Shown here in pieces: positions 60,684 through 63,933 of a stretch of DNA of 64,000 bases. Below the pieces are notes generated by a model. That model was given only the letters and a program-made list of their open reading frames with translations. It searched no databases and was not told the DNA's origin. This DNA is from Lachnospiraceae bacterium (GTDB lineage Bacteria > Bacillota > Clostridia > Lachnospirales > Lachnospiraceae), in contig JAFUZJ010000053.1 of NCBI GenBank assembly GCA_017476665.1, positions 35,755 to 99,754 on the forward strand, given 5' to 3'. Positions within the stretch are counted from its first letter, which is position 1; every line of letters begins with the position of its first letter. Both the position numbers and the translations under genes were made by a program.

Positions 60684-60875
60684 TTATATCGCCTCTATTG
60701 CTTCCATCAGATCATCAATATCAATCCCGTGTACCATCGCAGCCTCCTCCAGAGACTCTCCCTGGGAAGCCGGACAGCCCAGACAATGCATACCTGCCTC
60801 CAGCAGCACCGGTGCCACCTCCGGATTGGAACGCAGGATCTCCCCGATCGTCATTTCTCTCGTGATTCCGCTCAT
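60684..60875 (-). CDS. DUF1858 (ScdA-N-like) small protein
   Basis: The product has 63 residues from the ATG at 60875 (AAGGAG 9 bases upstream). Family signature: [30 protein letters not shown] (C-x-x-C). DUF1858 domains often accompany iron-sulphur or hybrid-cluster metabolism and can act as redox modules. It is convergent with the lipoproteins and divergent from the pfl locus. Confidence 0.85.
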
Positions 60876-61072
60876 GTATATTTTCTCCTTTCGACCTGCA
60901 ATTTTTCGGATCATCCATAATTATTTTGCAACCTGTTTTTGCAAATAATGTCTAAAAAATTATAATACTTTTTCCAAATTCAGACAAGTAATTTGGCACC
61001 GATTTAATAATAATTTTATTGATTCTTCAACACTTTATTTTATTGAAAAAATGTATCGAAAAAAGTGCATGA

Positions 61073-61197: not shown

Positions 61198-63237
61198 ATG
61201 AGACCAGAATGGACAGATTTTGTAACTGGCAAATGGGATAAGGAAGTCAACGTTCGTGACTTCATCCAGAGAAACTATCATCCTTATGATGGTGATGAGA
61301 GCTTCTTAGCAGGACCTACCCAGAACACGAAGGATCTTTGGGCACAGGTTCTTGACCTTCAGAAGAAGGAAAGAGAAGCAGGCGGGGTTCTCGATATGGA
61401 TACCAAGGTTGTATCCACCATCACTTCTCATGGTCCCGGATATCTTGACAAGTCCAAGGAGACCATCGTTGGTTTCCAGACTGACAAGCCTTTCAAGAGA
61501 TCTCTGCAGCCTTACGGCGGTATCCGTATGGCAGAGAAGGCTTGCGCTGACAACGGCTACGAGGTAGATCCTGAGATTTCCGAGTTTTTCTCCACTCACA
61601 GAAAGACACATAACGCAGGTTGTTTCGACGCTTACAATCCTGAGATGAGAGCTTGCCGTTCCTCTCACATCATTACCGGTCTTCCTGATGCTTACGGTCG
61701 CGGACGTATCATTGGCGACTACAGACGTGTAGCTCTGTACGGTATCGACAGACTGATTGAGGACAAGGAAGCACAGAAGGCATCTACCGGTCGTGTTATG
61801 ACTGATGATGTGATCCGTCTTCGCGAAGAGCTGTCCGAGCAGATGACCGCTCTGAAGATGATGAAGGAGATGGCTGCTTCTTACGGCTGCGATATTTCCA
61901 AGCCCGCTAAGAACGTACAGGAAGCTATCCAGTGGACCTACTTTGGTTATCTGTGTTCCGTAAAGGAGCAGAACGGTGCCGCTATGTCCCTTGGACGTAC
62001 TTCCACCTTCCTTGACTGCTACGCAGAGAGAGATCTGAAAAACGGTACCTTTACCGAGGAGCAGATTCAGGAGTTCGTTGATCACTTTATCATGAAGCTT
62101 CGCTGCGTGAAGTTCGCTCGTACTCCCGAGTACAATCAGATCTTCGCAGGCGATCCCGTATGGGTTACAGAGTCCCTCGGCGGTGTTGGTGTTGACGGCA
62201 GACCTATGGTTACCAAGATGAGCTTCCGTTATCTGAACACACTGACCAACCTTGGACCTTCTCCCGAGCCCAACCTGACTGTTCTTTGGTCCACCAGACT
62301 TCCTGAGGGCTGGAAGAGATACTGTGCAAAGATGTCCATCGAGACTTCTTCCATCCAGTACGAGAACGATGATCTGATGAGAGTAACTCACGGCGATGAC
62401 TACGGTATCGCTTGCTGCGTATCCTCCATGAGAATCGGTAAAGAAATGCAGTTCTTCGGCGCTCGTGCAAACCTGGCTAAGTGCCTGCTGTACGCTTTGA
62501 ACGGTGGTGTCGATGAGGTTACCAAGAAGCAGGTTGGTCCTAAGTATCGTCCTGTTTCCGGCGATGTTCTGGAGTATGATGATGTAATGAGCAAGTTCAT
62601 GGATATGATGGAGTGGCAGGCAGATGTTTATGTAAACACCCTGAACATCATCCACTACATGCATGACAAGTACTGCTATGAGAGAGCAGAAATGGCTCTT
62701 CATGACAGAGACGTAAGAAGATACTTTGCTACCGGTATTGCAGGTCTGTCCATCGTGGCTGACTCTCTCTCCGCGATCAAGTATGCTAAGGTTGAAGTGA
62801 TCCGTGACGAGGACGGCATCATTGTTGACTTCAAGACCACCGGTGACTTCCCTAAATACGGTAACGATGATGATCGTGTAGACGATATCGCTCAGGAGAT
62901 CGTTCACAAATTCATGACCGCTGTAAGAAGACATCACACCTACAGAGATGGCTTCCCTACCACTTCCATTCTGACCATTACCTCTAACGTTACCTATGGT
63001 AAAGCTACCGGTAATACACCTGATGGACGTAGAAAAGGTCAGCCTTTCGCTCCTGGTGCTAACCCGATGCACGGCCGTGACAGCCACGGCGCAGTTGCTT
63101 CCCTGTCTTCCGTATCCAAGCTGCCTTTCAATGATGCACAGGATGGTATTTCCAATACCTTCACCATCATCCCCGGCGCACTTGGTAAAGAGGATCAGGT
63201 ATTTGCCGGTGATATTGAACTCGATCTCAATAAGTAA
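61198..63237 (+). CDS. pflB: Pyruvate formate-lyase catalytic core lacking the glycyl-radical domain
   Basis: The product has 679 residues. It is formate C-acetyltransferase in sequence: thiyl-radical cysteines C406 and C407 in [10 protein letters not shown], plus [20 protein letters not shown] at the start and [20 protein letters not shown] near the end. It stops after [18 protein letters not shown] normal PflB is about 760 residues and continues for about 75 more, with the glycyl radical loop RVSGYAV. The missing part is encoded as a free 79-residue protein at 63638-63877. There is no sign of frameshift: both genes have their own AGGAGG sites and a third gene lies between them. Codon use is that of a strongly expressed gene. 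Confidence 0.95.
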
Positions 63238-63246
63238 TCCGGTAAC

Positions 63247-63344
63247 ATCCGGCTCAATATCACCGTGAGATACTCGAGCCGGATCTGAACAGGTAATTTA
63301 ATTGCATTTAAACCGGTCCGGGTGTCTCCCGCAGGCACCCGACC
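63247..63344 (+). other. Two hairpins between pflB and the small gene
   Basis: ATCCGGCTC/GAGCCGGAT (63247-63284) and GGTCCGGGTG/CACCCGACC (63315-63344, one bulge). Neither has a T-run, so they look like RNA processing or stability elements that could allow different amounts of the large and small proteins. Confidence 0.6.
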
Positions 63345-63365
63345 AAACCAATAAGGAGGCACACA

Positions 63366-63566
63366 ATGGACGAGAAGCAGATGGTTGACGATCTTGTGAA
63401 AATGTTGGATGCCGGTATGACGCAGGGTGTCGGTCACGTGAATGTGGATACCGCTGCGGAAGAGGCAACCAAAAACGTTCAGACAATGGGCTGCACGGAT
63501 TGTTCCAGAACGCCGTTGGCCTGCAGTGTACCGACACTTGAACAGGGTCTGGACGATTATCACTAG
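63366..63566 (+). CDS. Small cysteine-containing paralogue of the radical-domain helix
   Basis: The product has 66 residues, with AAGGAGG before the ATG. The N-terminal half (VDDLVKMLDAGMTQGVGHVNV) aligns with the start of the free glycyl-radical protein ([21 protein letters not shown]). The part that should hold the RVSGYAV loop is missing; instead there is C-x-x-C-x6-C (C43, C46, C53) and an acidic end. It may bind the core in place of the radical subunit, protect it, or take part in redox sensing. This is inference; I know no described family. Confidence 0.8.
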   Translation: MDEKQMVDDLVKMLDAGMTQGVGHVNVDTAAEEATKNVQTMGCTDCSRTPLACSVPTLEQGLDDYH

Positions 63567-63637
63567 GCGATTGTTTATAAAATTGTTTTCGTAACCGTCA
63601 ACCCCGCATATATAAAAATTATAAGGAGGATATTACA

Positions 63638-63877
63638 ATGGCAAATACTGCACAGGTTGATAATCTTGTAAACTTACTGGATGGCTATGCTACCAAGGGT
63701 GGACATCATCTGAACGTTAACGTTCTGAACAGAGATACTCTTCTGGACGCTCAGAAGCATCCTGAGAACTATCCCCAGCTGACGATCCGCGTATCCGGAT
63801 ATGCAGTTAACTTCATCAAGTTGACTCCCGAGCAGCAGGCAGATGTTATTTCCCGTACTTTCCATGAGGCTATCTAA
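63638..63877 (+). CDS. Free glycyl-radical subunit of the split pyruvate formate-lyase
   Basis: The product has 79 residues, with AAGGAGG before the ATG. It matches the C-terminal 75 residues of Pfl[35 protein letters not shown] (radical Gly54), [17 protein letters not shown]. The E. coli spare-part protein GrcA (YfiD) has the same domain but is an extra copy beside a full PflB; here it is the only radical domain in the locus. It must assemble with the 679-residue core and be activated by a PflA-type enzyme, not visible in this window. Confidence 0.93.
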
Positions 63878-63898: not shown

Positions 63899-63933
63899 TA
63901 ATGGGGCAAGCATTTTTGCTTGCCCCATTTTTT
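63899..63933 (+). terminator. Terminator of the split pfl operon
   Basis: A perfect 13-bp stem AATGGGGCAAGCA with its complement around a short T loop, followed by T6. Confidence 0.92.

Follow-up and report, generated by a model that had tools for sequence, protein, structure and literature searches.

In many gut Clostridia pyruvate formate-lyase (PFL), an enzyme destroyed by oxygen, is a main route from pyruvate. PFL catalysis is not known to need a reductant. In class I ribonucleotide reductase (RNR) the C-terminal dithiol arm of NrdA re-reduces the active-site cysteines, and small cysteine-bearing subunits that hold Fe-S clusters (BssB/BssC, HpdC) accompany other glycyl radical enzymes. 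In the one-chain PflB (TIGR01255; E. coli 1h16) the radical glycine resides in the same chain as the catalytic Cys-Cys pair. E. coli, which retains an intact PflB, also has GrcA/YfiD (6owr, TIGR04365), a stand-alone radical domain that, according to the available part of PMC8683613, rescues the cleaved enzyme, with PFL residues 696-733 being required for YfiD binding and activation. In the same part of that paper binding of YfiD to a truncated PFL (1-695) was below detection and the radical yield was 32-fold lower than with the oxygen-cleaved PFL, but once activated the truncated enzyme matched the wild-type activity (PMC8683613).

In the available parts of the open-licence literature searched, including PMC8683613, PMC13252398, PMC11528403, PMC12338860 and PMC6325248, we found no description of a natural split PFL, of the third gene described below or of its complementarity with a cysteine tail on the core; nor did the term "GrcA3" appear in the open-licence literature searched. 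What is already known is the family name GrcA3 in NCBIfam (NF038360, an "exception" model that names a cofactor) and, in the PDB, two chains that look like split cores.

The window, a stretch of 64,000 nucleotides from a Lachnospiraceae bacterium whose draft genome (72 contigs) is 97.3% complete, ends with its contig 123 nt past the gene grcA3. The PFL locus at this end comprises the following features:

61198..63237, + strand: 679-aa catalytic core of PFL, lacking the radical domain (TIGR01255, alignment to E. coli PFL, upstream GGAGG site)
62413..62418, + strand: codons of the catalytic Cys406-Cys407 (sequence; role by homology to E. coli C418/C419)
63366..63566, + strand: MID, the third gene, 66 aa, with a GrcA-like first half and a cysteine tail (conservation, dN/dS, profile-profile matches)
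63366..63446, + strand: MID residues 1-27, the docking-like half, ending in GHVNV (hhalign against GrcA3; AlphaFold2 helix 3-19, low confidence)
63492..63563, + strand: cysteine tail of MID with Cys43, Cys46 and Cys53, then SVPTLEQGLDDYH (hhalign against core tails)
63638..63877, + strand: GrcA3, the 79-aa radical subunit (NF038360; E. coli PFL 683-758; YfiD 6owr)
63797..63799, + strand: codon of the presumed radical residue Gly54 (RVSGYAV in the sequence)
63900..63929, + strand: terminator-like hairpin 3' of grcA3 (13-pair stem, then a T run)

Core, MID and GrcA3 each have their own GGAGG site. The hairpin is weak evidence by itself, a scan having given 3 terminator-like sites versus 2.5 in shuffled sequences. 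The spacer between core and MID (63235-63365) folds better than shuffles (z −2.87) and contains two strong hairpins, one of them shortly ahead of the MID ribosome site; perhaps this fold sets the subunit ratio.

The 679-residue protein scores 1095.5 bits with TIGR01255 (cut-off 994.2) and covers profile positions 2-665 of 744, and the 79-residue protein scores 161.6 bits with NF038360 (cut-off 158), of which family it is a member. The Pfam Gly_radical domain is severed at about position 51, the core holding positions 1-51 and the small protein 51-106, so that the chain break lies inside this domain, about 50 residues N-terminal of the radical glycine. A sequence-only reading of this DNA had described a core with Cys406-Cys407, a separate RVSGYAV gene with Gly54 and a summed length (679+79) close to that of one PflB; the open reading frames and residues proved correct, and in the alignment the two chains do tile E. 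coli PflB from residue 10 to 758 (core 10-681, GrcA3 683-758). That reading took the locus to be in two parts, of which core and GrcA3 are real, and missed the gene for MID between them (63366-63566). Both Cys406 and Cys407 are invariant in an alignment of 30 cores, as is Gly54 in one of 11 GrcA3 sequences. Selection is strongly purifying on the core (median dN/dS 0.046; 52 of 54 comparisons usable) and the median is 0.020 for GrcA3 (54 of 60 usable); the sets contained 54 cores, 60 of 79 GrcA3 and 60 of 78 MID, with no usable dS in 2, 6 and 20 comparisons, respectively. The locus thus shares with the one-chain PflB the core family, the Cys-Cys pair, the RVSGYAV loop and, in most relatives, an adjoining pflA, and differs from it in that the radical glycine is on another gene and in having an extra cysteine element. 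With GrcA/YfiD it shares a stand-alone radical domain belonging to PFL; GrcA3 (79 aa versus 127 in YfiD) is without the disordered N-terminal 60 residues of YfiD. PFL is here very probably a two-chain enzyme.

The solved chains nearest to the core are 38la_A and 38lb_A, both labelled "Formate acetyltransferase". They are absent from the PDB matches of GrcA3 at E ≤ 0.001, and 38lb has a tail starting GECDMCEMK, which appears to be of the core-tail rather than of the MID type. Since both chains are core-like and the tail of 38lb bears cysteines, split-type cores seem to be already under study by others. A Foldseek search with a poor core model returned PFLs first, and 38la and 38lb were not among the 50 matches listed (library to 8 April 2026).

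The split form is common in the family. Among 200 sampled genomes 171 contained a GrcA3-like sequence, partly within full-length enzymes. With TIGR01255 the matches listed gave 75 genomes with a full-length PFL, 70 with core-only PFLs and 3 in both groups (148 genomes scored above the cut-off, 6 of which lie outside these matches); the core-only proteins stop at profile position 663-704, and 67 of the 70 core-only genomes are without a full-length PFL among the matches listed. A set of 101 loci, assembled from 89 stand-alone GrcA3 (picked from listed rows), 11 fused enzymes and the window, consisted of 51 with core, MID and GrcA3, 29 with core and GrcA3, 11 fused and 10 with GrcA3 alone. In named organisms, including Acetatifactor muris DSM 23669, Kineothrix alysoides and Parablautia intestinalis, 350 stretches with MID were confirmed, with titles mostly of Lachnospiraceae, and we inspected the best 80 of them: GrcA3 was downstream in 80/80 and the core upstream in 76/80, the contig of the remaining four beginning 64-111 bases ahead of the MID frame. 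The idea of the sequence-only reading, a constitutive two-chain enzyme, is supported in so far as this is a standing two-gene PFL with no intact PflB found beside it; a conserved cysteine part had been overlooked. In 40 of the 51 loci with MID, and in 25 of the 29 of the tail type, a pflA gene follows GrcA3 at a distance of no more than 700 bases; no PFLA above the cut-off was found in the window's draft genome, perhaps because the contig stops 123 bases past grcA3.

When 295 genomes of the order were searched, all 43 full MID matches shared a contig with a GrcA3-like match (count from the table). A search of 398 genomes of the phylum gave full MID in two genomes only, both of the window's family, which suggested that MID is confined to one order; this was overturned by three MID loci from further orders within the class, where 16 stand-alone loci comprised nine with tails, three with MID and four with neither within the stretch examined. 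In one locus of another order (L282:1882-2085) MID is downstream of GrcA3 and not between core and GrcA3.

Profile comparisons show that MID is made up of two parts. The first half matches GrcA3 residues 2-34 (hhalign 96.0%, E 4.7e-9), and the second half, which is without the radical loop, matches the cysteine tails of those cores that are accompanied by GrcA3 only (95.3%, E 2.3e-8). The NCBIfam GrcA3 model touches 12 of 21 MIDs at E ≤ 0.01 (best 8.6e-7), far under its cut-off; no Pfam model matches any of the 21 at E ≤ 0.01, the window's MID has no match in PHROG, and we found no model specific for MID in Pfam, NCBIfam or PHROG. Both MID and the core cysteine tail lie outside NF038360. Matches of the MID profile in the PDB were at chance level, and the AlphaFold2 models of MID (55.9) and core (42.1) are poor. 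A chance open reading frame is ruled out by the conservation of MID and its median dN/dS of 0.067 (40 of 60 comparisons usable, with dS near saturation).

The cysteines of MID and those of the core end complement each other. At least two Cys follow the last core motif in 27 of 29 cores with GrcA3 only, and none of the 51 cores accompanied by MID carries any, all 51 MIDs having at least two themselves (the linkers of L134 and L138 were not parsed in this analysis). Fisher's test gives p 2.6e-19 with kinship ignored; with kinship considered there are only four independent, well-supported MID/tail contrasts, none going the same way and two to three the opposite way, in favour of complementarity (p 0.25, not significant). 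The helix-strand half is missing where the tail is covalent, and the cysteine pair is kept in nearly all loci. Past the strand 50 of 51 MIDs have two or three Cys only; the spacing is six residues in 45 of the 51, whereas among the 27 core tails it is four in ten and zero in seven. In L047 and L072 MID stops after CxxC and so lacks the second half of the motif. MID is not strictly universal in split PFLs: tails replace it, and neither element is present in phage-assigned cores and in 6 of 96 cellular loci with core and GrcA3 (L062 and L089 of 80; L286, L295, L296 and L302 of 16 in other orders). The cysteine tail tracks the split state, since cores of MID loci are without it, nearly all cores with GrcA3 only have it, and five of six enzymes that seem re-fused lack it. 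At the level of the genes, the comparisons thus show the split, its conservation and the complementary distribution of the two cysteine elements.

The trees (quick searches with SH-aLRT support only, from which 4 short cores had been removed beforehand) place the split cores of the family in one clade (SH-aLRT 99, 82 rows), in which tail and MID types are intermixed and at the base of which 38lb branches. Nested in it are six fused PFLs, of which L129-L133 are without linker Cys and L128 has them. L128 is a 774-aa fused PFL in which a cysteine linker (VTCGCEEVTCAV) joins core and radical domain; it is likely a re-fusion. The corresponding linker in 20 further full-length PFLs of the family contains no Cys. 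One split followed by two re-fusions would be the simplest reading of the tree. A second split lineage (support 100), without the Cys element, contains two phage-assigned cores and L302.

What could the cysteine element be for? Trans transfer of the radical in E. coli is possible but poor, so an enzyme that is split by nature has to be more effective, and the 32-fold lower radical content of the truncated enzyme indicates that a core with nothing but a radical domain may not be enough; the split-associated cysteine element is the obvious candidate for the improvement. Since the docking half is found only where the tail is not covalent, one would expect the cysteine tail to be what does the work in both types, on the core or close to it. 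MID or the tail probably acts on the core.

Giving it slightly better than an even chance, we propose as the best explanation that the locus encodes one PFL in pieces, with an exchangeable radical subunit and a dithiol tail, tethered to the core, whose task would be to maintain or guard the vacant site or to help in its assembly. The core would house the active site with Cys406-Cys407; GrcA3 would use its helix and its GHHLNV strand to dock where residues 683-758 sit in one-chain PflB, and hand its glycyl radical to the active-site cysteine. An O2 cut at Gly54 would then cost only a 79-aa chain, which we infer to be exchanged. MID would dock on the core by its GrcA3-like half and deliver a flexible C-terminal dithiol, and in tail-type species the same dithiol would be the core's own C-terminus, the docking half being unnecessary because the dithiol is already part of the core. 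At the gap left by the absent radical subunit the dithiol might hold Cys406-Cys407 reduced and shielded by disulfide exchange, as the RNR tail does, and yield to fresh GrcA3.

The reason for favouring thiol maintenance or protection, with help in assembly as the main rival, is the NrdA-like appearance of the tails together with a DUF1858 gene nearby. E. coli NrdA ends in GCESGACKI, with two C-terminal cysteines in a C-x3-A-C arrangement like that of the core tails DCSNGAC and DCASGAC, and a cysteine pair near the C-terminus occurs in 27 of 29 tails and 51 of 51 MIDs. The likeness is one of a short motif only: the spacing in MID is six, and the core-tail profile did not find RNR at E ≤ 1. BssB/BssC and HpdC resemble MID as small cysteine-bearing partners of glycyl radical enzymes, the difference being that MIDs mostly have two or three Cys. 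The DUF1858 gene (hybrid-cluster-associated redox disulfide; 60684-60914, − strand, HCLGC) is divergent to the split pfl genes of the window. DUF1858 (PF08984, TIGR03980) recurs near 47 of the 50 close-relative loci with enough upstream sequence, but beside only 27/51 diverse MID, 6/29 tail and 2/11 fused loci, for which the median upstream sequence was 1.6-2.0 kb. That the element maintains or protects thiols, and does not just serve for docking, we give a little less than an even chance.

If the proposal is true for about half of the PFL-bearing genera of the family (70 of 142 genomes, among the matches listed), the textbook picture of a one-chain enzyme irreversibly lost to O2 fails there. 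Nature would here provide a system in which to study radical transfer in trans as well as assembly and repair; MID, an overlooked third gene, would gain a concrete, testable role, and the annotations "repair cofactor" for GrcA3 and "plain PFL" for the core would need revision. A wider generalization, which we put forward as a speculation that may well be wrong, is that splitting a glycyl radical enzyme creates the need for a guardian of the empty site, for which Clostridia would use an RNR-like dithiol tail (on MID or at the core end), perhaps recharged by DUF1858, and that the radical subunit is a traded part, with extra copies in cells and carried by phages.

Among the other explanations, the one that fares best is that MID and the core tails serve in assembly and not in thiol catalysis, replacing E. 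coli residues 696-733, by which YfiD recognizes a damaged core, in GrcA3 docking and PflA activation, with the Cys binding metal or stabilizing the fold. The need for these residues in E. coli (in the available part of PMC8683613) speaks for this, and the first half of MID matches a stretch of GrcA3 equivalent to some of them; but precisely this helix-strand half is missing where the tail is covalent, the near-constant feature being the cysteine pair. We regard an assembly function as rather unlikely. More doubtful still is a decoy or off-switch: MID, a radical-domain copy that lacks RVSGYAV and resembles GrcA3 at the expected docking part, would occupy the GrcA3 site and store the core inactive, or quench the radical. 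The core tails, however, have the cysteines without a docking half, which makes competition for the site improbable as the shared function.

Much less probable is that GrcA3 serves for repair only, with a full-length PflB elsewhere as the real enzyme and the core as a relic. E. coli GrcA/YfiD works in this way (PMC8683613, available part), and NCBIfam named the family rad_fix_GrcA3; but no intact second PFL was found in the draft genome, where a PF02901 profile search gave only this core and one broken glycyl radical enzyme of another kind, and where the TIGR01255 match ends at position 665. The repair reading is also opposed by the 67 of 70 core-only genomes and by the purifying selection on the core, and is thus largely refuted. 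An assembly or sequencing error by which frameshifts broke a one-chain pflB has next to no probability despite the draft state of the genome and the close contig end, because each part has a Shine-Dalgarno site of its own, a complete additional gene stands between core and GrcA3, and the layout recurs in 50 other loci of the 101-locus set and in the loci from named organisms.

No second full-length PFL was found in the window's genome. Its other glycyl radical genes were read from their sequences, with no family search: L002 and L005 as class III RNR-like, and L007/L008 (G000 contig 7) as two frames, with a slight overlap, of an enzyme with RVWGFSAYF that stands beside an activase-like gene and is perhaps frameshifted or decayed.

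Lone GrcA3 copies were found in nine of ten cases in genomes with the module elsewhere; the tenth (L101), from the genome that has L079 as its module, is found where a contig breaks off. In IMG/VR, on whose assignment the viral status of the contigs rests, all 12 GrcA3 matches are stand-alone open reading frames, and MID was not found in its viral contigs. In PHROG the window's GrcA3 (63638-63877) belongs with phrog_1209 (E 7.9e-33). This phage family, listed there as of unknown function, therefore probably contains phage-borne radical subunits. The spare copies in nine genomes and those on phage-assigned contigs fit a subunit that, by its gene distribution, would be exchangeable. In L274 a 680-aa core stands directly ahead of GrcA3, and in L272 and L280 (equal match scores) the core follows GrcA3; the Cys element is absent from two distinct phage-assigned split cores. 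The PFL core of L272 (5234-7270) has TGA at three tryptophan places, which suggests recoding of TGA to Trp. Two large phage-assigned contigs (L273:2806-5799 and L276:2236-5231) carry an nrdD-like gene, an nrdG-like gene and a stand-alone GrcA3 side by side, and their NrdD-like proteins (genes read with no family search) retain their own RTCGY loop.
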